A program made the translations under genes and the position numbers. Positions 1 to 61,495 of a stretch of 64,000 nucleotides of DNA are shown one piece after another. The notes below the pieces were generated by a model that was not told the DNA's origin, did not search any database, and saw nothing but the letters and a program-made list of their open reading frames with translations. The stretch comes from Sycon ciliatum. Its lineage: Eukaryota > Porifera > Calcarea > Leucosolenida > Sycettidae. The DNA is taken from assembly GCF_964019385.1 (NCBI RefSeq), contig NC_088643.1:12187003-12251002 (forward strand), given 5' to 3'. The stretch's first letter is position 1. Every line of letters starts with the position of its first letter.

Positions 1-226
1 CAGAGATCACGATAAGTCTTTAGGCCACCAGCTCTGAGCAACTGGATGAGCGCCTCATTATGATCAGATAGTCTATCCCGGGACTGAATTCTCTTTAGTC
101 TCTCTATTGATGCGCTGTCAGTTATGAGATATTTCTTGATCACCATCTGTCGCAGTCGATCTGGGTCAACTTTGTTCAACCATGGTTGAATGTCACACAC
201 AAACCTTGTCAGGTCAAACGGATTGT
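1..226 (-). CDS. Second CARD-like exon of an NLR-like gene (partial, left edge)
   Basis: This is a near-identical paralogue of the second CARD exon of the complete gene (28640-28933). The acceptor follows a CAACAG at 227-232 and the exon starts with two bases that complete a codon, so it joins in phase to the CARD1 exon at 1539-1893. The visible part encodes the helical bundle from NPFDLTRF onwards. The donor end and the NB-ARC and MYND exons lie beyond the left edge, so function cannot be judged. It is probably the 5' half of another CARD-CARD-NB-ARC gene transcribed leftwards. A pseudogene is possible, but no frame break is visible here. Confidence 0.7.
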
Positions 227-1538: not shown

Positions 1539-1893
1539 AGGAGGATGAGTCAAGTGTTGACTCACGATCTGCCGACATTGGCTTCGTCGGACGGTCAGTT
1601 TTCCCACTGGCAGTTGCACCGCGTCGCTTTGCCATGGTACTGGCGACATGTTCCGCTACATGAGGCTGGCTGTGTTGAATCAGGCTCAGTAACGTGTCCA
1701 CCTGTTCGTCCGTTTTCTTCAGCATCAGCCTCACCACATACTTTGCCAGCTCCAACTTTTCATTTTCCTTTCCAGAGGCAGTATCATATTCCTCTTCGCT
1801 GAGGACATCGTTCTCCAGCAGGTCCTCCAAGATCAGTGACACATCTAGATTGGATACCAAGTACTTGATGTTGTACCGCACACTGTCCGGCAT
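1539..1893 (-). CDS. CARD exon 1 of the left-edge NLR-like gene
   Basis: The exon is 355 bp, the same length as exon 1 of the complete gene. It starts at an ATG (1891-1893, protein MPDSVRYN), the first Met in the frame, and ends at a GTAAGT donor in phase 1. Residues about 3-88 have the CARD pattern: amphipathic helices with LVSNLDVSLILEDLL, then DVLSEEEY, and the closing helix LIQHSQPHVAEHV. CARDs are death-fold adaptors that recruit CARD partners such as caspases or signalling adaptors. The exon pairs in phase with the CARD-like exon at 1-226. Many differences from the 30.3-30.7 kb copy change amino acids, but the frame is open. Confidence 0.8.
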
Positions 1894-5279: not shown

Positions 5280-5544
5280 ATGGCATTGGCTGAATTTTTT
5301 TCGTGACGACTATTACTCCCCAGTCCCTGCCTCCCAACAACAGAAAAGAAATACTCCCTGTTTCCAGCAGTTCACTTGCATACCAGTGTCATGGTTGTTG
5401 TCTCTTCTTACCATGAATGTTCCTATAGGTATTGTCTGATTCTGATCCAATGCACTACAATGCCCTCAGTTTGGTGAGTCTGCCATTCGATGATGCCGAG
5501 ACCTCTGGTCAGTTGAGCATGGCAGGCCCTACCAGCACCGTCTC
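5280..5544. other. Start of the block duplicated from downstream of FAXDC2 exon 5
   Basis: The sequence matches 53283-53530 closely, including the segment around TTCACTTGCATACCAGTG. From here to about 9.65 kb the left end parallels 53.3-57.0 kb. No coding feature was recognised in it. Confidence 0.75.
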
Positions 5545-6308
5545 ACTGCTGACTCCATGCTAGCCCCATGCACTGCTGACTCCATGCTAGCCCCATGTAC
5601 TGCTGACTCCATGCTAGCCCCATGTACTGCTGACCCCATGCTAGCCCCATGTACTGCTGACTCCATGTTAGCCCCATGTACTGCTGACTCCATGCTAGCC
5701 CCATGTACTGCTGACTCCATGCTAGCCCCATGTACTGCTGACTCCATGCTAGTCCCATGTACTGCTGACTCCATGCTAGCCCCATGTACTGCTGACTCCA
5801 TGCTAGCCCCATGTACTGCTGACCCCATGCTAGCCCCATGTACTGCTGACTCCATGTTAGCCCCATGTACTGCTGACTCCATGCTAGCCCCATATACTGC
5901 TGACTCCATGTTAGCCCCATGTACTGCTGACTCCATGCTAGCCCCATATACTGCTGACTCCATGTTAGCCCCATGTACTGCTGACTCCATGCTAGCCCCA
6001 TGTACTGCTGACTCCATGCTAGCCCCATGTACTGCTGACTCCATGCTAGCCCCATGTACTGCTGACTCCATGCTAGTCCCATGTACTGCTGACTCCATGC
6101 TAGTCCCATGTACTGCTGACTCCATGCTAGCCCCATGTACTGCTGACTCCATGCTAGCCCCATGTACTGCTGACTTCATGCTAGCCCCATGTACTGCTGA
6201 CTCCATGCTAGCCCCATGTACTGCTGACTCCATGCTAGCCCCATGTACTGCTGACTCCATGCTAGCCCCATGTACTGCTGACTCCATGCTAGCCCCATGT
6301 GCCTGCTG
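5545..6308. repeat. 27-bp minisatellite, about 28 units
   Basis: The unit includes ACTCCATGCTAGCCCCATG. Because 27 is divisible by three, long repetitive frames stay open on both strands, but these are by-products. The paralogous site at 53530-53565 has a single unit between the same flanks, so the array was born after the duplication. Confidence 0.95.
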
Positions 6309-6328
6309 GTGAGTTTGTGTACCTCGTA

Positions 6329-6845
6329 CAGTGCGTATCGGTTATAGCGTGGTCGTGTAAAAGAATATACTGCCCACAAGAATGAACTCTCATGTTTTCA
6401 TAATCATAACATGGGTTTCAAGTGCACATTTATTCTTACAAGCAATTTTATCGGACAGCCGAATATTATCGGTCCTAAAATTGGACTTTGTGTAGCAAAA
6501 CACACCAGATTAGTACAAAGTATATCGCCTGTAGTAATAACATCTGTCCAATGCAGTTCTGATCCGACTAGCGTTGGGTCGTAGACTACGTAGTGCTGCA
6601 GGTTCAACTGTTGTGGTCATGTAACTCATGTTGCATAGCCACAATGGTCAGCCTATGAGGCTATGGGACTATGACTGGCTGCATGCACAGTAGCACTACA
6701 TTGCATTATAGGATGATCTTCCTGACTCTGCGCACATGCACATGATATGTCACACTTGATTTTCAATATCGTGAGTAATAAATATCGGATATTATAGAAA
6801 TAGAAAGTCGTTTTCAAACACCCACGCTATAACCGATACCTACTG
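6329..6845. mobile_element. MITE-like DNA transposon with 24-bp terminal inverted repeats
   Basis: The 5' end begins CAGTGCGTATCGGTTATAGC and the reverse complement of the 3' end begins CAGTAGGTATCGGTTATAGC. The paralogous intron at 53580 lacks the 517 bp, which gives an empty site. No transposase is inside, so it is non-autonomous. The target-site duplication is unclear; the CAGTG-type ends would fit hAT. Confidence 0.75.
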
Positions 6846-11020: not shown

Positions 11021-14874
<3,854 letters not shown>

Positions 14875-14931
<57 letters not shown>

Positions 14932-14978
14932 TAGATAGAGAGAGAGAGAGAGGAAGAGAGAGAGATAGTGAGAAAGAG

Positions 14979-15058
<80 letters not shown>

Positions 15059-15060
15059 AT

Positions 15061-15103
<43 letters not shown>

Positions 15104-15170
15104 GAGTGAAAAAGAAAGAGACAGGGACAGAGACAGATACAAAAACAGAGAGATAAAGAGACAGAGACTG
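14875..15170. repeat. (GA)n microsatellite, right side of the LINE
   Basis: GA repeats with GACA and GATA variants form the second half of the tract interrupted by the LINE. Confidence 0.95.
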
Positions 15171-15248
15171 TTGGAATATAAAATTTATTTAACATTTCCA
15201 AAATCAAAGACCTAGTACAAGTACCACCCTGTAAGTTCACCCCTGTCA

Positions 15249-15713: not shown

Positions 15714-16130
15714 TTACTGCAGTGTGCGATGTCTGAGTCCTGCCAGCATAGCACAGTGTTGGTTGTGTTCACTTAGGTGCTCATCAGTTTGACGATGTTT
15801 GCCACACAGGTAAGCCATGCCACAACGAGGACATGCTGCGATGTTGTCCAGGTCATAGCAGACAAAACATGCTGCTACACGTGGACACCATTCCAGTAGT
15901 GCAATGTGGTGATCAATGCTCACACGGCCTCTCTTGGATTGACGATGCAGGGCAGCAATGAGAGAGTAGTATAGTAGAGTATCGTCTCCAGCTTGTGGTG
16001 GTAAGTACACAATTCCAGACACTGACAGACCAGTTGCACACTTGCTTGGCAGGCAAGCACTGAGATCATTAACCAATGACTTCAACGCTGGGAAGAGTTT
16101 AGACATTTCTGCAAGTGCAAAGATCGTATT
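15714..16130 (-). pseudogene. MYND-type zinc finger exon of the relic NLR copy
   Basis: It is homologous to the last exon of the complete gene and keeps an open frame to the same stop. The Cys/His set is present: CFVC, CPRC, YLC and a terminal HNQHC. MYND fingers bind proline-rich peptides. However, the acceptor dinucleotide has changed: where copies 2 and 3 have TAG before AATAC, this copy has TGG. The nearest alternative AG (after CACTTGC, exon from 16108) would shift the frame relative to the phase-0 donor. With the truncated upstream exon this suggests a non-functional copy. The stop codon overlaps a strong GTAAGT donor-like site, as in the other copies. Confidence 0.7.
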
Positions 16131-16455
16131 CCAGGGCAAAGCACACAACAAAGAAAAGTGTAGAAAAGAAAGTAACTGAAGCCAGTACACTTGAAACAGA
16201 GAACATCATGCACAATAATAGCAAATCAGACTGATATAGCGGAAAGCAACACATTCCATTTCCATAGTTTACAATGTTCAAAATTATCACATTCCCCTCT
16301 GTGTTCTTCAAGAAATCAACCTTAGAGAGACAGACACTATACAGTAGATAATTACTGAGTATACTGGTTTGCAATACAATGTTCCATTCAGAGTGGAATG
16401 TGGATGAAAAACAGTTATGGTAACCTGAATTGTGAACACTGTACTACCAGCTTAC

Positions 16456-17319
16456 CTCAATCCTGAGCAGTGCTCTAGCCGTCAGAATACAAGACTGCAT
16501 CACTTCAAGATCAGGTATCTTGTTCTGGCTACAGTTGTTAATCAGTGCTGTTGTGTGATCTGCTGGGTTTGAGCCATGACACCATCTCCTGACATAGTCC
16601 ATCACAATGTTGTAGGGATGCTGTGCTGGTAGAGTGAGACCCGTTGGAGTTGTGCATGCCCTTCCATTTACTACCAAGGATATGTACTGGATGTTGTACA
16701 TGCCATAGAAGTACATGTCCAGTTGTCTGGTTACTGTGTCATTATCCATGGAGTACAGGTACTGTTGTAACTGAAAAGCAGACAAGGTAGTGTGGTCGTC
16801 ATGGGTATTGAACGTGCGGCTGATAGCAGTTGGTACATGTTTCCACTTGCACAGCGGTATACCCAGTGGTGTAATCAATGATGGTGAAATAATCCACTCA
16901 CTGCTGCAGGAACCTGACATAACCTTGCCCAGGATCACAGCAATGCACTGTTGCAGAAAACCGTACATTCCAGTACATGAAGGGACTGCACCATCCTGTG
17001 ATAGGAAGCGTGATGACATCACGCTCTCAGCAAGGTCTTCTACCACCTGTACATTGGGCATATCCTTGTTTAGCAGAGTGGAACAATACAGTTGAATGAG
17101 TTTCAGGGCATATTCAGTGACACCTGTTGCAAGACCCATTCCCAGTGTTGTTGTAACACGCTGGTATACCACCTGCAGACGGGATAGTGTTTCCTGCCTG
17201 GGCTCAACCTGTCCTTCCCTGCAGTTGATGTCCAGAGACATGGATAGCCTGCATGACTCCAGAGAAAGTTGCATCAAATGTAGCTGCAGCGGTGACCCCA
17301 CTCCTGTCGGTTCTTGTTC
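16456..17319 (-). pseudogene. C-terminal part of the NB-ARC exon in the relic NLR copy
   Basis: It matches the last 285 or so residues of the long exon of gene 2 (from EQEPTGVGSPLQL to the GTAAGC donor) and is open throughout. The NB-ARC, winged-helix and preceding helical parts are missing. At 17319 the homology switches abruptly to a sequence (17320-17395) that matches the region 1-2 kb upstream of gene 2's long exon (26075-26145). An internal deletion of about 2 kb therefore joined intron to mid-exon. It may be transcribed, but there is no nucleotide-binding domain. Confidence 0.75.
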
Positions 17320-17411
17320 AGCGCTGACACACTGACAGCTCTTGCTCCGTAACCTTTAAAAGATGCCGAGAAAATATTTGATCGTACTGAATCATGCTCA
17401 GCACTTTCATC

Positions 17412-18564
17412 CTAAGGCACTGAACCATCTGCCTTCGCTTGATGGACCTTACATCGATGGTGTGCCGTATGGGGAAAAGGAAGTTTGCACTGTCGGCTAC
17501 ACTGCCAAATACCCCAACCTCTTGTGTGCTCACACCGTTGAAGACATTTAACTTTATGTTCCTTCCCATGACATGTAAACAGGCAGGCTGATTCGTGGAA
17601 TGAGGTGGTAGAAAGCTTCGTAACAGTAGACCTGCAGACTTCTCTCTCGCCGTTGTACGGTGGACAATCACCTTGTGTGTCGCACTTCCTGTTGCACTTG
17701 TGAACTCCGCAGTTGTGGGGTGCCAAGTCGGAGTGTTCATGGAGGTGGCTTGGTTGCGCACACCGTGATTGACAGAATTTCTCCTTACAGTGTCCCCCTC
17801 GATCACATGATTGCGGGCTTTGAATTATGATTGCCTGGCAATTCCGACATTCACGCACTCTGCATGTTCGAACACAGCCTGGCTGCACACAGTTATGTGC
17901 ATGTGTGACATCAGCAGGAGACTCTTTGCATGGCTTTTTGTGATGAGATTCTGAGCACCCTGGACATGGCATTGTGCACTTGTGCTCTTCTTGCTTTCCA
18001 AAGCAGGTGAGAACACAACTATGCTCTTCATTTGTCCAGGGTTCTTTGATAATCTCCGTACAAAATCCCTTCTCACCTTTACATGCATTAGGGCATTGAC
18101 CATTGAGAGAGCATCTCTTGTTACAGGCATGCTTCCCACAGTAGTGATATTCACCATCACTTGGTTTGTGAAGGTGGTCAGTGCTTGCGCAGTCCTTGTG
18201 ACATTGTCGCATTGTACAATGTTGTCCAGACTTCTCTCGGCACATTGGTGGTGAGTCCTGCTTTGTTTTGATTGCTCCACAATTAACACATTGCTTGACA
18301 ACACATGTGTGACGGCAACGCTTCTCTCCACAGACGTGCTCATTTCCTTCGTGACCAAACGGCTTATCGCATTCGTTCTTGCGACAACGAGTGCAGATTA
18401 CATCACATTTGTGTTCTCCGTGACAAGACATGTCGCAATTGCCATCATGAGGCATATCCGCCAATGGTTTGGTGATAGCTAAAAGACACCTGCCCGGTAT
18501 TCCTTCCGGACACCGCCCAGCATCAGTGCATGGCCTTCTGCACATGTGGTTCCCGCAGTTGAAC
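17412..18564 (-). CDS. Cysteine/histidine-rich exon with NFX1-like zinc-binding repeats
   Basis: An acceptor (CTTTCGCAG) precedes 18564. The frame is open for about 383 codons to a stop at 17412-17414, with a possible alternative GTAAGG donor at 17453. It encodes about 2.5 copies of a roughly 140-residue module. Each starts CGxHxCxRxC...GxCP, continues with a CHGxEHKC-like segment, then CxNCxAI, and ends HLHxxSD. Spacing resembles NFX1-type zinc fingers. The exon begins with one base completing a codon, which matches the phase-2 donor-like site overlapping the stop of gene 2's MYND exon 4 kb upstream. It may therefore be the true C-terminus of that receptor. Otherwise it is part of a separate gene. 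Function is not known. Confidence 0.65.
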
Positions 18565-18599
18565 CTGCGAAAGTTTGAAACAGAAATTCCAAGGCAATT

Positions 18600-22512: not shown

Positions 22513-22929
22513 TTACCGTGGTATGCGATATCTGAGTGCTTCCAGCATATCACAGTGTTGGTTGTGTTCACTTAGGTGTTCACCAGTTAGACGATGTTTG
22601 CCACACAGGTAAGCCATGCCACAACGAGGACATGCCGTGATGTTGTCCAGGTCATAGCAGACAAAACATGCTGCAACACGTGGACACCATTCCAGTAGTG
22701 CAATGTGGTGATCAATGCTCACACGGCCTCTCTTGGATTGATGATGTAGGGCAGCAAGGAGAGGGACGTAAAGCCTGTCAAGGGGCCCAGTTAAGGGTGG
22801 TAGGTACACAATTCCAGACACTGAGAGACCAGTTGCACAATTGCTTGGCAGGTAAGCACTGAGATCCTTAACCACTGACTTCAATGCTGGGAAGAGTTCG
22901 GAAATGTCGTCAGGTGCTAAGGCAGTATT
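22513..22929 (-). CDS. Gene 2 exon 4: MYND-type zinc finger
   Basis: A TTGTAG acceptor precedes 22929 and the frame continues in phase 0 from the long exon. It encodes 138 residues. The first 85 are helical (SKRGRVSIDHHIALLEW) and nearly invariant between copies. Then come the MYND ligands: C-x2-C at 88/91, C-x2-C at 100/103, C109, H112, H122 and C126. MYND fingers are protein-interaction modules of nuclear and cytoplasmic regulators. The TAA stop lies inside CACGGTAAGAG, a plausible donor in phase 2. The same overlap recurs at the two sister exons with GTAAGTT. Confidence 0.85.
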   Translation of the reverse strand, partial: NTALAPDDISELFPALKSVVKDLSAYLPSNCATGLSVSGIVYLPPLTGPLDRLYVPLLAALHHQSKRGRVSIDHHIALLEWCPRVAACFVCYDLDNITACPRCGMAYLCGKHRLTGEHLSEHNQHCDMLEALRYRIPR

Positions 22930-25900
22930 CTACAACAAAGCACACAACAAAGAACAGTGTAGGAAAGAACGTAACGGACAAGCAAAACAAGCACATGTTC
23001 AAGAATTACAAACTGGACTGATATAGCAGAAAGCAACACATTCCCTTTCCATAGTTACAATGTTCAAAATTATCACATTCCCCTCTGTGTTCTTCAAGAA
23101 ATCAACCTTAGAGAGACAGACACTATACAGTAGATAATTACTGAGTATACTGGTTTGCAATACAATGTTCCATTCAGAGTGGAATGTGGATGAAAAAAAC
23201 AGTTATGGTAACTTGAACTGTGTACACTGCAATACCAGCTTACCTCGAAAGTAAGCAGTGCTCTAGCCGTAAAAATACAAGACTGCATCACTTCAAGATC
23301 AGGTATCTTGTTCTGGCTACAGTTGTTAATCAGTGATGTTGTGTGATCTGCTGGATCCGAGCCATTACACCATCTCCTGACATAGTCCATCACAATGTTG
23401 TAGGGATGCTGTGCTGGTAGAGTGAGACCCTTTGGAGTTGTGTGTGACCTTCCAATAGCTACTAAGGAGCTGTATCGGTAGCTGTACACTTCACTCCAGA
23501 GCATGCCCAGTAGTGTGGACACTGTGTCATTATCCATGGAGTACAGGTACCGTTGTAACCGAAAAGTAGACACAGTGGTAAAGTCGTCATGGGTTTTGAC
23601 CGAGCGCCTGAAAGCAGTTGGTACATGTTTCCACTTGCACAGTGGTATACCCAGTGTTGTAAGCAATGATGGTGAAATAATCCACTCACTGCTGCAGGAA
23701 CTTGACATGACCTTGCCCAGGATCACAAATATGCATTGTAGCAGAAAACCGTACATTACGGCGCATGACCTGACTGCACCATCCTGTGATAGGAAGCGTG
23801 ATGACATCACTCTCTCAGCAAGGTCTTCTACCACCTGTACATTGGGAATATCCTTGTTTAGCAGAGTGGAACAATACAGTTGAATGAGTTTCAGGGCACA
23901 TTCAGTGACACCTGTTGCAAGACCCATTCCCAGTGTTGTTGTAACACGCTGGTACACCACCTGCAGACGGGATATTGTTTCCTGGCTGGGCTCAACCTGT
24001 CCTTCCTTGCAGTCGATGTCCAGAGACATGAATACCCTGCATGACTCCAGAAAAAGTTGCATGAAAATAAGCTGCAACTGCGACTCCACTCCTGTCGGTT
24101 CTTGTTCAGATTTCTCCAGGAGCATTTGGGTTCTGGAATCCAAACTCTCAAAAGTGAAATCAGAATCTGCAATGCTTGGACGTATAATATAACACAGGAC
24201 CGAGTTGCAAATGCTGTCAGCTTGTACAGATAGCGATGCTTTGGCCAATCTTTGAAACCTGTCCCCAAACTCTCCAACAAGTACTGCTCTCCGAAACAAG
24301 GCCAATAGGATACCCGACGACTTTGTTAATCCAGAGAAAGGAAGCAAGTCATCACCAGACAAAACATCAACAACTGACAAAGCACTCTGTATGTTCACGC
24401 TTTCCTGAAGAAGTTGGTAACTCCAATACATTGCTTTGTCTGCACCACAACCTCTACGGTCATCAACTTCCTTCACAAAGCCAAGGAAATGCTTGCACAT
24501 TCGCCGTTGGTACATGCGTTGCTTGTCTTCAGGGCATTGGTAACGACCAAACTCGGCGACGAATGGTTGCAAAGAGTAGCGTTTCAAATACGAATTGTAA
24601 TCCAGGAAACAAATCTTGATCAGAGGATCAAAACGTACAAGATGAACCACATTGGCATCAGTTGCAGGCAAACCCACCATCACACAAGCACATTCAGATG
24701 AGAACGAGGAGCGTAGTTGAGCAAGTGCATGGAATGACTCCTTGTCATCCTGTTGTAATGTGTTGTATGCTACTTTCAACAGCTGCAGAATCCGATGATT
24801 CGGTTTAAGACGATCATCGTTGAAGACATCAAGACCAAGCTTCTTGAACAATGACAGCAACATGGTGGGAGTTAATCGGCCACCTTGTAGAAGACCAGCT
24901 GTAATGCGTACAGCAAGTGGAACATTTCCACAATGATCCAATAACCTCTGTGCATCTTCAATGCTCACACTACCTTCACCACATAGACCATGGAGAAGAC
25001 CAACAGCACAAACCTTTGTCAGACCATCAAGACGGTGTTGTTGTAGTTTAAACTGGGCAGCGTGTAGGTCAAAGTAAACACGACTTGTCAGTAGGACATG
25101 TACGCTGTGTTGTTGGCGTAGTAGTCGTTGTATGACATCTTGTAGTTGGAAATCCTTATCCGCATTGGCCTGGATAGCATCCTCGGCATTGTCCAGAATA
25201 ACTAGCATGTGGTGTTTGCCACCATCATCATCCATGGCATCAGTTGATTTTGTTGTCTTGCCAGTAGTTTCAGATGAAGCTGGGTTTGTTTCGAGTCGGT
25301 TCTGAATCATTGCCTGGACAGCATCAACACCAGCTACACCGCGTAAGTCAAAGAACTCCACACGACAACCAGCATTGCGACATACATGTCCAACAGCAAT
25401 GGCTACGGACGTCTTACCAAAACCAGCTGGTGCCACAAGACTCTGCACACGTGTAGATGATGACTTGGACTTTGTTGTGATAATGTTGTGACTGATCTCT
25501 TTAACAATGTCATTCCTGCCAGTGAAGTGTCGGTCTTTGTCCGGTAGAGATGACTGGCTTGAAGTTGCTGATCTTGTTGAATCCTGTGTTGTAGTCAATG
25601 TTGTATTGGATGTTGTACCCGTTCTAGTTACACTGGCTGTTGTTTCAGCTGATGTTGGTTGTTTGAAGATTGGTTCACATCTGTTGGACGTCCGTTGTTG
25701 GTCTGCCTGACAAGCTCCCACTGTGTGCTGCAATGGCTGTGTTTTCTGTTTGCCAACTGTTGTCATGGTGATACCTACAAAGGCAACAGAAAGTATGAAT
25801 AAACCTGTTGTAAGTTTTGAAACTCTTTCAAAAGGGATGTATGATGTACTTCCTTTGTTAAGCGAAATGTTGTTGCATGTTTTTGCAGTTCCGTCAAAAG

Positions 25901-28900
25901 CATTTTATGGCTACAACACACTTCGCAGAGGGGAAAACAATGCGCATACGAGAGATAGTAGTTTATAGATGTCACACAATTTGTTTCGAAGTGGTCCAGC
26001 TTCTCTCTTCATCTGAATCCGATCACAACTCATTCCCTGCATTGAGTGTGCTTCCTCACTGACTCCCGTCTTCAGTGCTGACACACTGACAGCTCACGCT
26101 CTGTAAACATTAAAATATGCCGAGAAAATATTTGATCGTACTTCTTTGCTTGAACTGTGAACTTGACGATTTGCACGGTGCCGCTGTCGACAGTTTTTCT
26201 CTCCGCCGCTCTCCAGAATGCGATGGAATGTGCCATGGCAAAACAAGCAAACATTTAATGCTTTTCATTTTGGCAGCGGGGTTCTGCTGCCAGCATGTTT
26301 CCAAAGCCTGCAGAACTTCTGAGCTCCTTTCTGGTTTCCTTCGCCATCAGTGACACGTCTGTCTCCAGGCTGTAGAAGAATGCCAAGTCGTCCGCGTTGA
26401 CATCGGGGTTTTGTCCCGCCTGAACAACAATCTGAATGTCGGGTCCCTTCGCTTTCCCTTGCGCTGCAAACGCACGTGCATTGAGTTTCATTGTGTGCGG
26501 ACGCGGACCATCGTGCTGGTACAGCAGTGGCTGGCCGGCTTCTGTCCAGTTCTAGGCACTTCTTCATGCCACGCGGTCTTCCAAACTAATACTTACTTCC
26601 ATTTTCCCAGCCCCGAATGTTCCACATGGTTGACACGTGCCAGCACCACAGGTCGTGGGAGGGGGGGGGGGGGGGGGTAGATCACCAACATGTTTCCCTA
26701 AAATACCTATGGAAAGATCATAAAATCAAAATTTCTTAGTACTGGTAGTGTTCTGTGCACTGAGCAATGACAGAGGGATACGTTTACGTTGCAAGAATAA
26801 CAGAGGGATACGTTTACGTTTGAGAATAACGCCCCGATTTCAAACAAGAATCCCGGGCTTATCTCGTACTAGTAGAGACGCTTTGCTGAGCAAAACTTTG
26901 CATGGATTACCGCGTCTGGGCTTGCAAATATTTCTGCGAACGTTTGCGCGAAATTTGTATTTTGCATGATTTTCGTTCCAGGAAAACACGCGTGTACTCG
27001 CGCTTGTTTGAGAAGTCGTCTTCATCCGATTATTTATTTTTGCAAGTGGCAGCACCCTGCGACGAGAACTCTTTGACTACGTTGTCCATGACCGGCAGAC
27101 AAACGGGTTTGCCTGTGCTGTAATCCGGCGCATCAACACCTGAAAATCAAGAAAACAGGGATCATTGATATAATCGACTCTGAAAAGACGACCAGGGTAG
27201 GAAATCGGACATGGTTCCGGAGATTAAGCAACACGGGCTGCCATATGGGAAAGCTAGCACTGGAGGACCAAGCCAAGAGTATATCTACTGGATTGTGAAA
27301 GATGAAGCACCAAACATTGCATGAGCGTGGTTCACCAATAGTCACTGGTCCGTGATCAGCGAAAATTACTGCGAAAATTGTTTCGTATTTCCTTCAACTT
27401 TCGCGTTCACAGCTGCGAACGTTCGTGCGAAGTTGCTTCTCGCGACGTCAATCGAAAATTTACGCGAACTTTTGCTCAGCAAAACCTCTCTAGTGGTTGT
27501 TGTAAAACTCTACAATTAATAACAAAGTCATGTTCCACTGATAGTGGATTTTCCACAGTGGTGTTGATGACCATCTTGACCTAGTGAGATCTTTTGGAGG
27601 TCATTGAATGATGGCTGGTAGCCTTGGGCTTAGTATTTCCATGGAAATGTTCAAATTTATGACTGCCGCCAAAGTACCTTGGAATCTTCGCTCGCCAACA
27701 ACTACTGTACTAAGTCTCAGTTGAACATTTTGTCTGGAAAGTGGCATTCTCTGGAATACTGCACTATAGCTGCGGCATAGCAATGAGGAAAAACTGACTT
27801 CTACTAAAACAATGTTTGCGATTTCGAAGCAATTGAAGTTTGGAAAATGAAAGCCTGAGCAGTCACAGAAAGCAATTCAAGTATGGAAGGGGACGGGGTG
27901 GTTTCCGTCCAGCACTGCACTATTTGGTGCATAGATGCGCGTGCGAACTGAAGTGCTTAATTGCATGAAGTGCATGACAATGCAGGTTGTGCACATGTAT
28001 GCCGTGTGCATGCATGTGCTGCACGGCATGCCGGGTTTGCCTGCTTCCACAACTCACATGCTTTCACGGTCACAGCTTCTATAGTGTGCGCTCGATTCAC
28101 TCGATTTTTACGTCCACCACCGGGAAATCGCTGTGGGCTGGCTTCTGTGATAATGTTCCTTCTACTGCGATAAAGTGCGAGGCTAAATGTTCTAGAATCC
28201 TCTTGTTTTAGACTAATTCGAGGCTGCTGAACACGAAAATTGGGTGTACCTGCCGAGGCCGTGTTTGCCTCTGGTCGAGATCAGTACTTCTCTATGCCTC
28301 TGTGCAAACCGCGGCTCCACCTTTTTTGTTCAGGCATGGCATGTGTGGCATCAATGGAAAGGCAATGACCTCAGCTACCTAAAACAGCATCGACAAGGGA
28401 GTACTGGCCACGGGATAAGATAGAAGCGGGGTCAAAGTCAGGCCAAAGAGATCTCACGCGGGGCCCAATTTACGGACTGTACAACTACAAACTTTTCAAA
28501 ATTTCAATCGATCGGAACTCAGTCATTCCTGGGTTATTTCCAAAAACTAACATATGTACGTCGAAAAGAAAACTCTCGGCTGTTCATTACGCACCATCAA
28601 AGTTGAACACATTGCAGTAAACGTATAGCAACAACATACCTGGGTGGGACAAAATGGAGAGCATTTCCTTGCTCTTGTCGGCATAACCAAGTTCCTCAAT
28701 GACAACACAGAGATCACGATAAGTCTTTAGGCCACCAGCTCTGAGCAACTGGATGAGCGCCTCATTATGATCAGATAGTCCATCCCGGGACTGAATTCTC
28801 TTTAGTCTCTCTATTGATGCGCTGTCAGTTATGAGATGTTTCTTGATCACCATCTGTCGCAGTCGATCTGCGTCAACTTTGTTCAACCATGGTTGAATGT

Positions 28901-30702
28901 CACACACAAACCTTGTCAGGTCAAACGGATTGTCTGTTGCGAAAGCAGCAAAATACAGAAGGCACAGATGACACATGAACACACAACTACACACAACTAC
29001 ATGTCAAGAAACAAATAAAAATGGAATTGCACAACACAGATGATACATGGAAAGGAATTTGATTGGACACACCATTCCCATAGCACTGCACATCCGAACA
29101 AGTTCCGTTATTTTACAACGTTTCGGCACTTGGCCATCGTCAGGTGATAAGAACAATGGACACACACACACATACACACACACACACACACATACACACA
29201 CACTCACGCACTCACGTGCGCATGCACACACACACATGCACACACACAAACACACACACACACATTCCCAGAACCGCACATCGGAGCGCTTCAGCGATTG
29301 TTTCAATGGACAGCTGGGAGTTTTCTCTTCGACCTACATATCTTAGTTTTTGAAAATAAAAAAAGAAATGACTGAGTTACGATAGATTAAAATCTTGAAA
29401 AGTTTCGATCCCAGGAGATCGAAAGTTGTACAGTCCGTACACAAAGGGTTAAAATTTACACGCGAGTTGTGACTGCAGTTTTCACCTGACCCAGGCTGGA
29501 ACTGAACTCCCTAGCAATAATCTAGTGACCCATGACAGTGCTTCACGCCGGTGGCACCTGCATTTCTTGTAGATCTACAGATTCGTCATGTAGATCTGGT
29601 TATAACCTCAGGACTGTCCATCTAACTGAACCCACTGCATTCCCAGGGTCAGCTCTCAATACGATTGATGTGAATGCATAAACTAATTGAACTCTGTAAG
29701 CAGTTCTCACTGCTAAAAAGTAAGTACTGGCAGTGCTGCTCAATGAAATCCAGTCGCGTCACTCAAGTTTGTGCCTTGCACCATTTTGCAGCCCATTGTT
29801 TGCAGGTCTAGGGCTGCGCAACGCCCAGCGCGTACTTGAGTGATGCTGTGACTGGATTTCATTCCAGCGTGTACTTGAGTGATGATGTGACTGGATTTCA
29901 TTCCAGCGTGTACTTGAGTGATGCTGTGACTGGATTTCATTCCAGCGTGTACTTGAGTGATGCTGTGACTGGATTTCATTCCAGCGTGTACTTGAGTGAT
30001 GCTGTGACTGGATTTCATTGAGCAGAACTGTTCATGCAAATGTACTGTCGTGGACATGGAAATCCCGTCGATTGACCGGGGCCGGCGCCCTCAGCGCGTA
30101 CAGAATGCTGCGTGCAGGGCACATGATTGTTGATCCTTTGCGACTAGCGCACTGCAGCGCATAAAATGCATGTGTGTACAGCTTATCCACGGCTGCATGG
30201 CCAGCACCCTGGGGCCGCTAGACGTGCGACTGGATTTCCATGTCCACAACAGTAGTTACATGCATGTTCAACGAGTCCCCCCCCACCCCCTTCCACACAC
30301 ACACACACACACCTTCCTACGCCACTGTAGTCAATGTGAACACTTACCGGAGGACGGGTCACGTGTTGACTCACGATCTGCCGACATTGGCTTCGTTGGA
30401 CGGTCAGTTTTCCCACCGGCAGTTGCTTTGCGTCGGTTCGCCATGGTACTGGCAATATGCTCCGCTACATGAGGCTGGCTGTGTTGAATCAAATTCAGGA
30501 ATCTATCCACCTGTTCGTCCGTTTTCGTTAGCATCAGCCTCACTACATACTTTGAAAGATCCCACTTCTCGTTTTCCTTTCCAGAGGCAGTAACGTATTC
30601 CTCTTCACTGAGGACATCCTTCTCCAGCAGGTCCTCCAAGATCAGTGACACATCTACATTGGATACCAAGTACTTGATGTTGTACCGCACACTGTCCGGC
30701 AT
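22513..30702 (-). CDS. Complete CARD-CARD-NB-ARC-MYND receptor-like gene (NLR/STAND type)
   Basis: Four exons: 30702-30348, 28933-28640, 25774-23244 and 22929-22513. Junction phases are 1, 1 and 0, all borders are GT-AG, and the coding length is 3,597 nt, giving 1,198 residues. Order: CARD (about 3-88), a linker, a second CARD-like bundle (about 120-213), a Ser/Thr-rich linker, NB-ARC (about 320-600), a long helical region to 1060, and a MYND-like finger (1148-1186). By analogy with Apaf-1 and NLRs it should be a cytoplasmic ATP/ADP switch that oligomerises and recruits CARD partners; no LRR, WD40 or clear TPR sensor is visible. Introns hold microsatellites, a mariner fossil and MITEs. The stop overlaps a donor-like GTAAG, so a longer form ending in the Cys-rich exon is possible. 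Confidence 0.85.
23244..25774 (-). CDS. Gene 2 exon 3: NB-ARC ATPase and helical region
   Basis: The exon is 2,531 bp with acceptor CCTTTGTAG and donor GAG|GTAAGC. Two bases at its start complete the codon left by exon 2. Motifs, numbered on the whole protein: Walker A APAGFGKTS (332-339; the first Gly of the consensus is Ala in both full copies), Walker B MLVILDNAED (406-415), LLTSR (444-448) and CGNVPLAV (498-505, the GLPL motif). A winged-helix-like part follows. From about 640 to 1060 is an alpha-helical region without recognisable repeats. Near 970-1000 it varies strongly between copies while the flanks are nearly identical. Confidence 0.9.
26255..26560 (-). pseudogene. Fossil mariner-like transposase fragment in an intron of gene 2
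   Basis: One frame reads LLYQHDGPRPHT, then IQIVVQAGQNPDVNADDLAF and FYSLETDVSLMAKETRKEL, ending at a stop near 26257. This matches the second-Asp (QxDxAxxH) and third-acid (PxSPDLNxxDLxFF) regions of plant/protist-like mariner transposases. The N-terminal half and ends are missing. It lies in the intron between exons 2 and 3. Confidence 0.6.
26868..27500. mobile_element. MITE-like element with about 30-bp terminal inverted repeats
   Basis: The left end has ACTAGTAGAGACGCTTTGCT followed by GAGCAAAACTT. The reverse complement of the right end reads CACTAGAGAGGTTTTGCTGA followed by GCAAAAGTT. The interior has repeated CGCGAA/TTCGCG motifs and no transposase. It sits in the intron between exons 2 and 3 of gene 2. 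Confidence 0.55.
27903..28232. repeat. Dispersed 320-bp repeat, copy 2
   Basis: Same sequence family as 21129-21448, in the same orientation, here within the intron of gene 2. Confidence 0.75.
28640..28933 (-). CDS. Gene 2 exon 2: second CARD-like domain
   Basis: 294 bp, acceptor CGCAACAG, donor CCAG|GTATGT. It encodes about 98 residues: FVCDIQPWLNKVDADRLRQM, then a turn, LIQLLRAGGLKTYRDLCVVI and EELGYADKSKEML. The helix pattern and the LLRAGGLKTYRDL segment are typical of CARDs. Similarity to the first CARD is low, so the pair is ancient rather than a recent duplication. A death effector domain is the main alternative. Confidence 0.8.
29826..30020. repeat. 39-bp minisatellite, about 5 units
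   Basis: The unit includes GTACTTGAGTGATGCTGTGA and lies in the CARD1-CARD2 intron of gene 2. The paralogous intron at 227-1538 has one unit. Confidence 0.9.
30348..30702 (-). CDS. Gene 2 exon 1: N-terminal CARD
   Basis: The start ATG is at 30700-30702; an in-frame stop lies about 60 bases upstream, so this is the first possible Met. It ends at TCCG|GTAAGT in phase 1. Residues 3-88 form a clear CARD, with LVSNVDVSLILEDLL, KDVLSEEEY and a final helix LIQHSQPHVAEHI. The rest is a polar, Lys/Ser-rich linker. CARDs mediate homotypic assembly of caspase-activating or NF-kB-type complexes. Confidence 0.85.
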
Positions 30703-39100: not shown

Positions 39101-42100
39101 CACAGATGGTGACATGAGACAAGACATAACTCAATGTCGCGACCTATTAATACATGTAGTAATATTACTAATCGTATGATGGAAGAAGGTGGAGGACCGA
39201 ACATACCTCCCTCTCGAACGAAAAGAAACTTCTATGAGTGAGAATCTATTACACACACAGATTTATGTGAGAAGATGAAAGAAAAGTATGAGCGGAACAC
39301 ACATTACTGATCACTCGGTGATGTCACCAATGGTCATGCCGGTGTTGACGCTGCGAATGGCGTTTGCGGGTGAAGCGTCGGGTACCTCCAGCGGCACAAG
39401 GCGGCCAACTGAACGACGGTAAATCTTGATGTCCACGACGCGCACTACACCATCTTCACCGGGGTACGTAGCTTGCACTCTCCCGAGTGGCCAGCGGGCT
39501 CGTGGCGTGTGCTCCTCAAGCACAATCATGACATCACCTACTTTGACATTCTGCTCGCCGCGGTGCCATTTGGAGCGCACATTCAGCTTCGGCACAACTT
39601 CCTTGAGCCACCTGCTCCACACGTCACGTGTCAGCCGCTGAACATACTTCCAACGGCGATGTGGGTGTACCACTCGTTCTGCATCAGCAACATCTTCCAG
39701 GGCAGCAGAGACATCTTGATGGCCAACAAGAAAATGCAGCGGTGTCAGGGGGGCCGGGTCATCAGCATCGCTTGAAACGACAGTCAGAGGACGCGAATTC
39801 AGCAACGCTTCGGCTTGAATTAGCGCTGTCTGGAGCTCCTCATCAGTCAAGTCGGCACGGTACAACACGGACTGGAGAGCCTTCTTCATTGCCTTGAGCA
39901 GGCACTCAAAATAGCCACCAAAATGGGGCGACAACGGTGGGTTGAAACGCCATTTGATGCCTTGTGTAGCGAGTCGCTGGCCTGCTTGCTCACTAGCTTG
40001 ACTCCAAGCCTCCCTCAGCTCTCGCTCGGCGGCAACAAAGTTTGTTCCGTTGTCCGAAAGAATCTCTGTAGGAGTTCCGCGGCGCTTGCAGAAGCGAGTG
40101 AAGCATAGGAGGAAGCCGTCCACATCCAAAGAGTTGACAACTTCCAGATGGCAGGCGCCTGTCTGCAGACATTTGAACACGCATACATACCGCTTCAGCT
40201 GGGTACGACCTCTGCCCTGCCGAGTGTGGAACGGGCCGGCAAAGTCAATACCAACGCGAGAGAAGGTTTGCAGTGGTGGTGCTGTGCGGAAGACAGGAAG
40301 CTGGCCCATGACTGGATTGGCTGTCCTAGCCCAGGTTCTGCGACACTTCACGCAAGCATGGCGGTGGGAACGCACAGCCATCTTGCCACGAACAATCCAA
40401 AACTTGTCGGCCAGATTGGAGAGGAGGTGGTTGGGCCCGACTGAGTGGCGACAGCGGTCATCCTCGCGTCCAATCACCAGCTGGGTGACGCGGTGCCTTG
40501 GGGGCAGGATGGTGGGACTCCTCAGCTCGCCAGGGAGATGGTGGGACGTCTGTAGTCGACCACCGACCCGCATGACTGGGATGCCGTGAGACTGATCCAT
40601 GGTAGGTCGCAGCTGCACCAACGCATCCGAACCCAGCAGCTCCTTGTTGCCCAGGACACGTTTGAACACTTCTGGATACGCATCTTGCTGAGCCTGACTG
40701 ATCCAGAGACGCTCCGCTTGTTGCAGCTCTTCTGCCGAGAGTTCGTTGATGACAAGCGTCCCAGTCTTTGTAGCCACAGTGACCTGCTGTTGACTGCTAT
40801 CCGCTGGCTGTGGTTTACGGCGCGCACGGCGAGCAAACCTACGGCACCAGCCTGTGATGCGAATCAGCTTGTCCAGCGATGAGTACCGGGCTGGACCAAG
40901 ATCAGTGGGTGCTGCAGCAGTAGAACTTCCGACGAAGCTAGCACACATGGATTTCTTTGTCAGTCCTGGCAGCTCCTGGGGAACGACAATCTGCTTTGCT
41001 GGCCATTCAGATTCCGGAGCAGCAAGAAACGCAGGGCCATGCCACCAGACTTCATTGATCGCGAGCTGCGCAGCAGAGAGACCGCGAGTGGCTTGGTCGG
41101 CAGGATTCCGTTTACCAGGTACGTGCTGCCAGTGCCGGCTACTGGTGGTTTCCTGAATCTCCGAGATCCGGTTCCCAACCTCAACCTTGAACTTGCGGCT
41201 TGGAGATCTCACCCAGTAAAGAACATTCATAGAATCCGTCCAGAAGAACCGGCGGGCCGATGGAATGCTTAGAGCAACGCCGACATTGGCGCCCAGCCGA
41301 CCGCCAAGCACAGCGGCTTGAAGCTCTAGCATGGGTATGGACTTGCGACGGACCGGGGAGGGTCGGGCCTTTGCCATGGCGAGTGTCACTCTGTTGACGC
41401 CATCAGTCTGCGGTGATAGCACGTACGTCACAGCGGCATAAGCGGCATCGGATGCATCGCAGAACGTGTGCAACTGCAGCTCTCCCCTGCTGTCGGCAGT
41501 CTTGAAGCTTCGTTCAATGTTGAGAGAGCTGAGGTCTTCAAACTCGCTGAACCACCGCTTCCACTTCACAGCTTGTTCGTGGCCAAGAGGATCGTCCCAC
41601 CCCAGCCCGCTGATGCAGCTCTGCTGGAAGTTCACCTTTGCTCGGATCGTAAATGGGCTGAGCTGGCCACGCGGATCAAACAGCTGCGCCATGGAGCTGA
41701 GCACACCTCGCCGGGTGTACTCTACGTCGACCGGCTCTGGGTAGCGGAACGTGAACTGGTCTTGCGCCGCAACCCATGTGACCCCCAGAGTCTTCGGAGA
41801 CGCAGGTGGCTGCTCGTGAGAGACAATGTCACGGGTATTTGTCACAGCGCGGTGTTCAACAGGAATGGACTGCAGCACTGCGGGGGAGTTGGTGATCCAT
41901 TTCCGAATATGGAACCCTCCTCGTGCCAAAGTGTGCTGCAGATCAGCTCGCACAGAGATTGCCAGTTGCTCAGTTGGTTGGGAGTTGAGCAGATCATCAA
42001 CGTAGAAGCTGTGGTCGATAGCTTCCTTAGCAGCAGGCACCGCCGTCGAACAGCACTCCTCTGCCACTTGTTTGAGCGCCCTGCCAGCCAGGTATGGCGA

Positions 42101-45100
42101 GGCTTTGATGCCAAATACCAGCCGTAGGAACTCAAAGGTGTCGATGGTGCCCGGTGACGACTGCCACAAGAATCGATGATACTTGCGGTCTTCAGGAGCG
42201 AGTTGAACCTTAAGGAACATCTCTGTAATGTCACCGGCGATCGCAATGGGCTCGAGACAGAAGCGCAGCAGGACATGAACAAGGTTGTTCATCAGATTAG
42301 GCCCTGCATGCATCAGGTCATTGATCGAATATCCGTTGCACTTGGCAGCTGCATCGAAAACAACTCGAAGTTTGGTTGTCGTCTTGTCATCCCGTACCAC
42401 AGGGAAGTGGGGAAGGTGCCACTGGTCAGGGATGGAGAGATCAGCCGCTTCGGAGACGCGTCGAATGTATCCTTTTTCCAGGTACGCCTGCAGCACTTTC
42501 GTATACTGCAGCTTGATTGACGGCCACTTGTCAAGTGCCCTTTGCAGAGATTCCAGACGGTGTAAAGCGAGATGTTTGTTGGACTGGACACTCGGCTTGG
42601 TGCCACCCTTCCACGGAATGGCAACCTGGAATCGGCAGTCGCTGTAACTCAAGCTGCGGGATGTGACGGCCTCGGCTTGCTTCTCCGCAGGGCTCAGGTA
42701 CTCCGTGGTTGTAGGCTGCATACCAACAGCCTCTAGGCTCCAGAACTTCTCCACCATTTGGTCGAGTTGAGCTGCGCTGGATACGGAGGCGCCATGCAGT
42801 GTGAATGCTTGCGGTGCAGTAGCGTCGATTGGCGTTGGGCCAAAGCAGATCCACCCCAGCGGTGTAAGCCGAGCAATCGGACCTCCCTCACTGCCACTCC
42901 GCTCCTCATACGCAGTGTGAAGGCTGGCAGCGTTCAATCCGATCAGTAGGTCGATGCTCTGACAAGCTGAGTCGGGGAACTGTATGTCCTGGAGGTGGGA
43001 CCAGTGCTTCTTCTCTGCATTCCAGTCGACTGGTGGCAGGTTGACCGTGACTGCTGGCAGTACCCAGGCATCAAGCACAGTGACGCTCGGAGTGTCACCA
43101 TCAGTGCGGCACACGCTGACGCTGACCTGTTGTCTCAGCCCAGTCACCTTGCCGCCGCCGATGACTGCCGTTTCCACTTGTGACTTCTGGCCTTCAAGTT
43201 CCAGCTTGTGAGCTGCATCCTCTGTTATGTAGCTGCAAGATGATCCGGAGTCAAGCAGCACAGTGGCCTTCATCTTCTTGCCATGTTCGCCGATGACGTC
43301 GGCCTGCAACACCATGAATGCGGCAGTGGTACCACATCCATGCGTACTGAGGCTGTTCTCGTTCACCGCAGCAGAGTTGCCAATGGAGCCAGCTCCAGTA
43401 CGGCTGGCTGTGGACGAGGAAGAATGGTTGGTGACAGACCTCTGAGCTGGCGAGGGTCGCCCGCGCCTCGCACCTGTCTGGCCCTTCATCTCAGCATGCA
43501 GCAAACCATGATGCCGCTTGTTGCACTTACTGCAGGTGTCTTTGCTGCAGCTAGCGGCCCAGTGCCCAGATGACAGGCAACACGCACACAGCTCGAGCAA
43601 CCTCACCAAATCCCAACGCTTGCTAGTTGACAATGCCTTGAAGCTGCTGCATTCGGCTAGGGTGTGCTGCCCACTGCACTTCTTGCAAGACGCCTTGGCA
43701 CCGCTGCTGACGGCGTCATGAGTCCCAACAAACGTACGGTGTGTGGCCGTGGATCGTTCCCTGGTAGCCTGACTGCTGATGTCTTTGGGGCGTTCAGCGG
43801 GAATCCTGTCGGCTGCCCGCTTCAGAGTGCGGACGTGCTCCACCAGCCATGCAGAGAACGTGAAGACGTCATTGACCTGGCCATGCCTCTCGAAATACTT
43901 TACCAAGAGACGCTTGGGTACCTTCTCGGACGCCATTATGTACAGCTCTACTCCAGGACTCACACCACTTGCTCGGAGGTTGGCGACAGTGGTACGGAGC
44001 TTGATGGCGTACCGTTGCAGCCCACTCAAGTCTGCGTCACTGGTAATACGTGCTTGACTCACTACATCCCGAATCTGGTGCTCTATTAGCCTGTCGCTAC
44101 CACCATACCAAGCATCGAGCTCGGTCCATACATGGCTGTAGGCGTCCGGGCCATCCAGAATCCCTCTCACAATCTCCGCAGCACGGCCTCCATCCACTGC
44201 CTCACGCAGCCTCGCGAGTTTGTGATCGCTCGTGTACCGGGGATTTTCATGGATGACGCGGATGAACCTTTGGCGCCACGGAATGTAGTCCTGGTCCAGT
44301 CCGCTGAACTTAGGCAGTTCCATGGGCTTCACAGTTTGCTCTATTACTACCGGCATGGTGGGCGGCTTGTAGGATGGTGGAAGCTGTGTCGACTGAACAG
44401 TTACTGGTGCTGTTACAGGCAGGGTCACTGCTGGCCTACTTATGGGCTTGAACGATGAGGCCGATGGATTGAGCTGTCCAGCTGCTGGATTGAAAATTGG
44501 CAGTTTTGAAATAATAGGTGCAGCTGTCTGCGGCTGTGGCTGCTGCAGCAGCGCAGGCTGCAGTGGTGGCATCGCCTGGGTGCATGCTTGCTGGGCTGAC
44601 CAATAACTTGGAAAAGGCACAGTGTTGCTAACTGTGGCTACCGATTGATGCACTGTTGGTAGCTGCATGGTGGCTGTGGGTGCGGACATTAGCACTGGTG
44701 GAGCACAGGGAGCTGCCACTGGCACAGGTACTGACGGTACACTGCCACTGTTCACAGCAGAAACTAATACTTGATGCTGTTGAGCAACTTGCACAGCACT
44801 CACACTTTGTGTACCCACACCCAGAGCCAGTTGAGGTGCCCTTGACCTGGTGGTCACACTTGCTTGACTTCTACTAGTAGTAGTACCAGCCAACTTACTG
44901 GATGCAGTGAGTGTACCCAATACACTACCTGGCCTATTGACTTGTAGAGGTGACAAAGAAGGGGTTGTCCTACCAAGCACAGGCATTGATCTTCTGCCAC
45001 TCATAATAGCAAGACTAGAACTTACAGTCTGCATGGCTGGGTGCCCAGCACCACTTGATGAATGACCAGCATTGCCAGCAGGCACGCCATCCAGACTGCT

Positions 45101-46803
45101 TTCATGGACTTCAGCAGCCCTTGCAGTGACAGGACTCTTGTTGCTCGTCTGCAACGAAGTGTGACCAATGGCACCAGGGATATCAGAATTCGGCGCACGC
45201 TCTGCTACCATCAACATTTGTTCCATGGCATCCAAGTCCAGGGTGCCTCTCGAGTTTGACCTGGAACTGCTTCTGCCAACACCAACGGAGGGACTACGTG
45301 TTGAAGCCTGCATCCTTTCCTCACGCTCTACGTATGAGCTTACATCGGAGAGGAAGGATCGCTGCGTCCTGTACGCCCTGTCCCAACCATCTAGTTTGAG
45401 CAGTTCCCGGTCGTCATCTCATGACTCCAAGATTTCCCTGTGTCTGGTAACCAGCTCCCGAATCTCTTGATCTAGTTGCTCAGCTTCTTGTAAATCTCTA
45501 GCTAGGTACCGCAGACTTGGTGCTCTTTTAGCAAACTCCCGCTGCAACTCGCCAGCCACTCTTGTGAAACTGCTTTTCAATTTGCTTCGATCTCTCACGA
45601 GCTTCTCGAGAACCGAAACATCACTCGAATTTCTTGTCTCTCCGAGCGTGTCCTCAGCGGCGGCGGCAGCAGCAGCTTCCTCACGAGGAGAAGCAACGCT
45701 CGCTCCGTCGTCCACTTCTGATGTCTGATGTTCCGATGTGTCCATACCTGACGAATCGCAACAGGATCCGGCTCGAAGGACCAGAATGTCGGATCACTGG
45801 ACTCGTAATCTCGTGCTGTCCGGGCTGTCACAACCCTCACTAATAAAGTCACTTGACTCTCACAACAGACACGATGGAACAGGACTCAGACAAGGAGAAA
45901 GATATTATTCGGAAGGACTTATTGCAAGAACAAACACATCATTCGAGCAGAGGAAAACAAACTACAACTTGTCTCCACTTGCGAAACAGAAAACTAACAA
46001 CAGCACTGACTACACTATCAGTACATGTATGAATAAGGGCAGGTTGCATGCAAATATGGATGAAAGTACTGCTCACGGTTCACATGGTTCAGTTCGCGCG
46101 AGCCGCGAGCACGCGCGTGTGCCCGAACCGCGTATGCACAGATGGTGACATGAGACAAGACATAACTCAGTGTCGCGACCTATTAATACATGTAGTAATA
46201 TTACTAATCGTATGATGGAAGAAGGTGGAGGACCGAACAGGTGAGTACGAGAGTAAAGGTGAGTACGAGTCTGTAAAGGTGAGTACGAGTCTGTGAGTGC
46301 ATACGAGTGTGCGAGAGCATACGAGTGTGCGAGTGCGTGCATATGTGAGATCGTGAACCTAACACAAGTGGAACATCGTCACATCGTAAGGATCACTAAA
46401 ACAACCAGTTATGTAGCTAGAATAATACTGATCACAAGTAGCGTGGGAATGTAGCAGCTCGCGGCTACACACAGCGTAATTTACACATGAGCAGTATGGG
46501 CTTATGCAGTGAATGTGAAAATGGTTGTGTAACCGGTGTGGCATCTGGCATTGGATCTGTTTTAAAAACCATTGTGCAAGTAATGGTGACTGTGTTTGGT
46601 GCTATCGGGTGTGTGTTGCAGTTCTATGGAGTTCCATGGTCGCCTTCTACTGGTTGTTCAATGCATTCTTCATCTTCGTGGAGCTGACTGGAACCCCTTC
46701 GAGCATCTTGCAATATCGTATCCAGCCTAAAAAGAAGCCAGCTGTGGTCAGTTATGCTATTCTATGCGCCAGACGTTCTTTTCGGTGTGCCGCCCGGTAG
46801 TGA

Positions 46804-52732: not shown

Positions 52733-52773
<41 letters not shown>

Positions 52774-61170: not shown

Positions 61171-61495
61171 CTAGAGCAAAGCACACAACAAAGAACAGTG
61201 TAGAAAAAAAGGTAACTGAGGCCAGTACACTCAAAACAGAGAACATCATGCGCAATAATAACAAATCAGACTGATATAGCGGAAAGCAACACATTCCATT
61301 TCCATAGTTTACAATGTTCAAAATTATCACATTCTCCTCTGTGTTCTTCAAGAAATCTACCTTAGAGAGACAGACACTATACAGTAGATAATTACTGAGT
61401 ACACTGGTTTGCAATACAATGTTCCATTCAGAGTGGAATGTGGTTGAAAAACAGTTATGGTAACCTGAACTACGAACACTGCACTACCAGCTTAC

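Follow-up and report, generated by a model that had tools for sequence, protein, structure and literature searches.

The window analysed here, a 64,000-nucleotide stretch of the 538-Mb genome of the calcareous sponge Sycon ciliatum (C1:12187003-12251002), holds a predicted four-exon gene of CARD-CARD-NB-ARC type on its minus strand. The four exons (355, 294, 2531 and 417 nt) join in phases 1, 1 and 0 to a coding sequence of 3,597 nt, which specifies 1,198 residues and a single terminal stop. All splice sites and the reading frame are intact, and the gene model given by an earlier sequence-only reading of this stretch proved exact. The order of the exons is beyond chance: like exons recur in the same order at many further loci, and all four modules are found together in five database models, one of which (P0016) has only part of exon 1. 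The gene consists of the following parts.

30348..30702, minus strand: exon 1, N-terminal CARD (118 codons, phase 1 end; Pfam CARD)
28640..28933, minus strand: exon 2, second CARD (294 nt, symmetric phase 1-1)
23244..25774, minus strand: exon 3, Ser/Thr linker, NB-ARC-type switch and long helical tail (fold, Pfam match of relatives, conserved motifs)
23244..24272, minus strand: helical tail of exon 3, putative sensor (exon residues 501-843; positive selection)
22513..22929, minus strand: exon 4, short helical part and degenerate MYND-like zinc finger (TAA within a donor-like GTAAGA)

The end of exon 4 was compared at 29 of 30 exon-4 loci, those that could be parsed. The TAA lies inside GTAAGT in 28 of the 29 copies and inside GTAAGA in the focal one; because this donor-like sequence is conserved, the TAA may be a splice donor and a further exon is plausible. 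At 22513-22520, many database models end two residues past the TAA, apparently via another exon.

Domain identities of the encoded protein

Exon 1 passes the Pfam CARD profile PF00619 (2.9e-8, 34 bits against a cut-off of 23.9). Exon 2 is a CARD by predicted fold only. A fold search returned a six-helix death fold closest to CARDs, the window exon has no PF00619 match, and among 21 family members only two give a weak one (best E 0.045). When its sequence was searched against PDB and Pfam, exon 2 had no significant match; the top two PDB rows (E 0.031 and 0.081) were designed proteins, and the name of one gives the 1cy5 template as its basis.

Exon 3 encodes what we take to be a P-loop (APAGFGKTS), a Walker B motif (LDNAED), the motifs TSR and GNVPLA, and a winged helix with LQP replacing MHD. 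In the modelled fold the P-loop, Walker B, GxP and winged helix follow in order, and across 33 aligned proteins GFGKTS and L-DNAED are invariant and VPLA near-invariant. The relative P0045 passes Pfam NB-ARC (5.9e-13, 49.1 bits), and the best structural matches to the core of the modelled paralogue P0017 include Apaf-1, CED-4, plant NRC proteins and a STAND-TPR protein (STAND, signal transduction ATPases with numerous domains). The window exon itself fails the Pfam profile, and it is through the Pfam match of the relatives and the fold that exon 3 is assigned as an Apaf-1/NB-ARC-type STAND switch followed by a long helical tail. Profile matches to AfsR were set aside as trivial, since SARP-type bacterial regulators were already in the alignment. 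No WD40 match was found in the window exons or in P0017, and the only LRR signal was LRR_8 at E 0.11-0.15, below cut-off, in the paralogues P0030 and P0017. The absence of LRR and WD40 noted in the sequence-only reading thus stands at these cut-offs; its absence of a clear TPR has to be softened, as in a low-confidence model the helical tail aligns with the STAND-TPR protein 6mfv (Foldseek E 1.2e-6).

MYND fingers have eight zinc ligands in the pattern C-x2-C, C-x2-C, C-x3-C, H-x3-C. All 29 parsed array copies have Arg in place of the sixth ligand of the exon-4 finger, so that the full ligand set is not present. All seven family members compared match the MYND profile below cut-off (best E 0.013), the best PDB profile is ZMYND12 (E 0.1), and hhalign to 12 of the 15 MYND fingers found in Sycon gave a probability of 73.7 (E 2.9e-5). 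Genome-wide, PF01753 identified 15 places among the matches listed, none of them in the array described below. The relatives P0047 and P0050 have, by eye, all eight ligands, with one extra residue before the His. Judged from these alignments, the finger is only MYND-like and degenerate. Of the proposed order CARD-CARD-NB-ARC-helical-MYND, the first CARD is thus supported by Pfam, the second by fold and the NB-ARC by relatives and fold; the MYND assignment is weak. In profile searches of the protein only the exon-1 CARD passes, the exon-2 CARD, NB-ARC and MYND staying below cut-off.

The second CARD exon lies in a piggyBac-type element

Exon 2 and part of the introns on either side of it are enclosed by terminal inverted repeats (TIRs).

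28471..29452, minus strand: piggyBac-type inverted-repeat element enclosing exon 2 (left end intact, right end decayed)
29305..29452, minus strand: left TIR with TTAA (arm 29305-29439; TTAACCCTTTGTG at 29440-29452, plus-strand coordinates)
28471..28588, minus strand: right TIR (terminal stretch with TTAA lost)
1..734, minus strand: left part of a like element in the neighbouring gene, holding that gene's exon 2 (cut by the window edge)

The inverted arms 28471-28588 and 29305-29439 are 87-100% identical. Relatives of the element lie at unrelated sites on other chromosomes: six dispersed copies match the window over exon 2 and the surrounding intron, share their right end and also give an inverted match, and their ends read TTAACCCTTTGTGTACGG... 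and its complement. Five of the six loci are complete (967, 972, 989, 999 and 1388 bp), and TTAA is found at both ends in all five, where sequence similarity stops on either side. Two complete copies on C8 share flanks, indicating a duplication, which leaves four distinct insertion sites. Termini of Kolobok elements are marked by 5'-RR...YY-3' according to the available text of PMC9587614; the CCC...GGG termini seen here do not fit this pattern, and Kolobok was ruled out. Exon 2, with its own acceptor and donor, thus sits in an inverted-repeat element of about 1 kb, which on the basis of the TTAA target and the CCC...GGG ends we assign to the non-autonomous piggyBac-type transposons. If such an element inserted into a phase-1 intron, a CARD would be gained in a single step with the frame unbroken.

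The 34-base TIR end occurs 263 times in the genome at up to three mismatches, and its reversed control not once. Comparisons with TIR ends cover 100 of these 263. Among the ends listed, an exact one lies within 1.5 kb of 19 of 41 close exon-2 copies (0.03 expected), these copies being all but a partial C12 match of the 42 at 82% identity or more. Conversely, for 80 of the 100 exact ends listed, no close exon-2 copy lies within 1.5 kb. CARD-bearing elements number at least 40 (22 in the array and 18 elsewhere), a lower bound since only 40 of 1592 first-look candidates were scored; both ends are reached by 26 of the 40, and 16 of these 26 are dispersed. The element family seems to exist also without CARD cargo, because the one such element read, L108 on C10, at a site lacking exon 2, has about 144 bp of terminal repeat in common and an unrelated interior.

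Donor and frame are kept in seven of seven compared copies, which had been located by their acceptor. Among compared element copies, the exon diverges by 4.7%, the upstream intron by 7.0% and the downstream intron by 9.2%. For four of the 18 dispersed copies, an older CARD exon from the same superfamily lies on the same strand and no more than 7 kb away (0.07 expected within 10 kb). Two array copies that were compared have a common left flank, so that in at least part of the array the copies descend from one insertion. The genome contains 116 matches to the piggyBac transposase profile PF13843, many with open frames.

The surrounding 1.6-Mb tandem array

All 55 genome matches of exon 3 fall at C1:11.26-12.86 Mb. 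Chaining of exon matches by strand and order resolves a 1.6-Mb tandem array with 54 NB-ARC loci, of which 17 carry exons 1-2-3-4, 31 carry 1-3-4 and 3 carry 2-3-4, besides various partial loci. Of the 48 loci in which exons 1, 3 and 4 chain, 31 accordingly lack exon 2, and 16 array models in the database likewise have exons 1, 3 and 4 without it. The chaining took up 54 of 55 exon-3, 63 of 67 exon-1, 58 of 60 exon-4 and 23 of 150 exon-2 matches, the remainder lying outside the region or being short fragments. The 67 exon-1 matches comprise 61 in the array, two near C1:13.75 Mb and four elsewhere, and the exon-2 search scored 150 of 274 candidates. Three further pieces of the array lie in the window.

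1540..1893, minus strand: exon 1 (CARD) of the neighbouring array gene (Pfam, genome match)
15723..17320, minus strand: array fragment, C-terminal half of exon 3 and exon 4, no NB-ARC
60862..64000, minus strand: exons 3 and 4 of the following array gene, truncated at the window edge

The sequence-only reading had counted similar exons four times in 64 kb and seen in them an expanding family of receptor type. The recurrence is real, the count understates an array of 54 loci, and the array supports an expanding CARD-(CARD)-NB-ARC-helical-zinc-finger receptor family. The tandem-CARD architecture itself exists at 17 loci; most loci carry one CARD of these kinds.

Copies in the array are mosaic. 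Focal exons 2, 3 and 4 match the locus at 11.76 Mb at 99, 99 and 96%, with exon 1 at only 71%; focal exon 1 is 98% identical to two other loci, whose exon 3 is 86% identical. The array clearly recombines. In P0030, residues 119-229 form an alternative two-exon cassette in the exon-2 slot, which is also present near C1:11.51, 12.55, 12.70 and 12.73 Mb and has relatives on C7 and C9. At C1:13.74-13.75 Mb there is a diverged sister group (probably P0047 and P0050) with an eight-ligand MYND finger by eye. Its finger is far closer to the array than is the helical region preceding it, hinting at a possible exon exchange between the sister group and the array.

Selection on the helical tail

For tests of selection we used 30 of the 55 exon-3 matches. 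Counts of nonsynonymous relative to synonymous differences (pN/pS) were made after thinning near-identical copies, on 27 of 30 exon-3 and 26 of 30 exon-4 copies; the site-class comparison M1a/M2a omitted identical rows and used 26-30 of 30. The pN/pS ratio was 0.39 (0.30-0.49) in the core and 1.03 (confidence interval 0.82-1.32) in the tail, a difference reached in none of 5000 codon permutations. In the tail, M1a/M2a gave twice the log-likelihood difference (2dlnL) as 338.3, with omega 5.3 for 16.8% of sites and 37 sites at a posterior above 0.95; the core yielded 5.5 and no site. The two tail halves, each on its own tree, gave 78.9 and 215.9, and residues 411-500 gave 18.0. Null simulations without positive selection produced 0-0.9 on one tree (four of four) and 9.6-34.5, with at most five sites, when eight segments with different trees were recombined (eight of eight). 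Recombination thus inflates the test and falls short of 338, as the recombining nulls reach at most 34.5; for the same reason the 18.0 of residues 411-500 cannot be relied on. No use was made of helical periodicity among the selected sites: on one or both of two measures, three of five windows had p < 0.05, but the windows were picked post hoc, and p was 0.77 and 0.29 for the tail as a whole.

We consider the helical tail the likely sensor, because it is under strong positive selection and the switch core is conserved. That its high ratio of nonsynonymous to synonymous rates (dN/dS) reflects relaxed constraint or a recombination artefact we judge improbable. An overall pN/pS near 1 in the tail, together with the rise of the test statistic in the recombining nulls, would fit this explanation, yet these nulls remain far below the observed value in both statistic and number of sites, the selected class has an omega well above 1, both tail halves are high on their own trees, and the core of the same array is not elevated.

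Relatives of the exon-2 CARD in other receptor classes

RefSeq models place a relative about 90% identical to the exon-2 CARD in Roco GTPases, with gene models on C5 among them, and a diverged relative (61-64%) in a NACHT-LRR protein. RefSeq models that contain the exon suggest that the transposon-borne CARD may enter transcripts; the model P0060 (CARD-CARD-ROC-COR, C1) may be an annotation join. Given these placements in Roco and NACHT-LRR proteins, the element may connect receptors of different kinds to a single CARD pathway. We give about even chances to the broader proposal that a piggyBac-type element repeatedly lands a phase 1-1 CARD exon in receptor introns, thereby rewiring receptors of the NB-ARC and Roco classes into one CARD network, as may have happened earlier to an NLR lineage with a diverged relative of the exon.

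Other features in the window

Open frames of mobile-element type and one repeat lie elsewhere in the window, in which Rfam found no match.

39311..45418, minus strand: 2,035-aa open frame, by eye a BEL/Pao-type gag-pol retrotransposon (protease, reverse transcriptase and integrase motifs)
11654..15184, minus strand: 1,176-aa open frame with reverse transcriptase (RVT_1, 2.7e-23), probably a non-LTR-type element
51746..52822, minus strand: fragment with a reverse transcriptase match right at the Pfam cut-off
5494..6341: protein-like tandem repeat (unit TADSMLAPC); several frames are open, on both strands

Proposed mechanism and alternative readings

On the basis of these results, we regard it as likely that the focal gene is one member of a Sycon ciliatum tandem array of intracellular STAND switch proteins whose second CARD is transposon-borne. 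The array proteins would be laid out as a CARD, an optional second CARD, an NB-ARC-type ATPase switch, a helical tail and a degenerate MYND-like finger. The fast-changing tail, perhaps with the finger, would bind a ligand; ATP-driven oligomerization or ring formation of the switch would then cluster the N-terminal CARDs, and these could seed a CARD-dependent defence or cell-death signal. This chain is borrowed from Apaf-1, CED-4 and NLRs; the immune function of the array is presumed.

Several findings weigh against this reading. Exon 3 of the window gives no Pfam NB-ARC (PF00931) match above the gathering score, the position of the MHD histidine is Gln (Q619, invariant in the 33 aligned rows), the full-length model of P0017 is poor (pLDDT 53.8), and the exon-4 finger reaches 10.8 bits on the Pfam MYND profile against a cut-off of 22.7. 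The focal element has lost the end of its right TIR and retains TTAA at the left end only, no left end was seen at the sixth dispersed locus (C4), and a comparison of 113 piggyBac transposase places with the listed exact TIR ends found none at a distance of 25 kb or less (the other three of the 116 are on small contigs). Between dispersed copies exon 2 shows no sign of constraint in dN/dS (about 1.0), so most CARD-exon copies could be passengers. The selection sample consists of the copies most like the focal one, and the M1a/M2a test was our own implementation, not PAML.

The annotation of the focal locus itself offers a different gene. In the RefSeq model P0040 (LOC135813568) translation starts at residue 304 of exon 3, both CARD exons are absent, and exon 4 is spliced across its TAA, within the GTAAGA, into a Cys-rich exon.

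17412..18570, minus strand: Cys-rich exon joined to exon 4 by LOC135813568 (P0040; own-genome search)

Were this the real gene, the locus would express a truncated NB-ARC piece running via exon 4 into the Cys-rich exon, and the CARD exons would belong to another transcript or to none. We think this unlikely: every splice site of the four-exon gene is intact, as is its frame, and RefSeq itself joins the same four modules at the paralogues P0017 and, with part of exon 1, P0016. The Cys-rich exon has relatives near C1:44.0 Mb (46-77% over matched parts) and no other array match among the five matches listed, which suggests a neighbour chained in by annotation. By eye, the Cys/His-rich stretch 17412-18644 on the minus strand resembles NFX1-type repeats, with no Pfam match. 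Less probable still is that segmental duplication or gene conversion spread exon 2 between receptor genes, with the inverted repeats as bystander miniature inverted-repeat transposable elements. The C8 copies with common flanks, the flank shared by two array copies and the mosaic match of the focal exons to the 11.76-Mb locus all accord with such exchange; however, similarity ends at TTAA on both sides of five complete dispersed elements with four distinct flanks, the same TIR encloses the CARD-less interior of L108, and most listed exact TIR ends lack a close exon-2 copy within 1.5 kb. A spread by gene conversion only was considered and dropped. Carrying somewhat more weight, although we doubt it, is the possibility that the array of STAND switch proteins serves allorecognition or developmental cell death and not microbial defence, since a tandem array with mosaic copies and a diversifying tail also fits a self/non-self locus, and an Apaf-1-like core fits apoptosis.

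Relation to known systems and implications

Compared with the CARD-NB-ARC proteins Apaf-1 and CED-4, the Sycon array differs in having no WD40 match, a C-terminal degenerate zinc finger, LQP in place of MHD, a second CARD inside a transposon and an array of 54 loci. The bona fide NLRs of sponges (CARD/DEATH-NACHT-LRR), as presented in the available text of PMC12909245, resemble it in their species-specific expansion and in the N-terminal CARD of the NLRC class; they are NACHT and LRR proteins, whereas the Sycon array is of NB-ARC type with no LRR match above cut-off. The main text of that paper contains no occurrence of Sycon or MYND. Plant Pack-TYPE DNA transposons are TIR elements whose cargo is host sequence, which they contribute to transcripts (PMC13317346, available text). 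The Sycon element is likewise a TIR element with a carried exon, but it is from an animal, targets TTAA, bears a splice-ready CARD exon and is associated with receptor genes. In the portions available to us, brown algal ROCO candidate immune receptors are described as diversified by exon shuffling (PMC11378527) and plant NLRs with integrated domains as having repeatedly gained foreign domains (PMC5819176). In Sycon, by comparison, the shuffled exon is a CARD whose vehicle is visible, and a signalling domain lies inside a transposon, unlike the exogenous domains fused to plant receptors. The sequence-only reading knew of no described animal family with this combination, and none was found in the open-licence literature among the matches listed. 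That literature contained nothing pairing Sycon ciliatum with NB-ARC, or MYND with NB-ARC and CARD; among the matches listed there was also no MYND-NLR case, no calcareous-sponge NB-ARC or NLR paper and no transposon-borne exon with an immune or death domain.

The array adds a candidate for a diversifying non-LRR sensor in Calcarea. Evidence that death-fold domains are shuffled in invertebrate immunity usually comes from the end products. In Sycon ciliatum the vehicle, the target-site marks and young copies of the cargo are still visible, and exon delivery into immune receptors is therefore testable. If the proposed reading is true, receptor outputs would spread by transposition, and inputs would diversify by selection on the helical tail.

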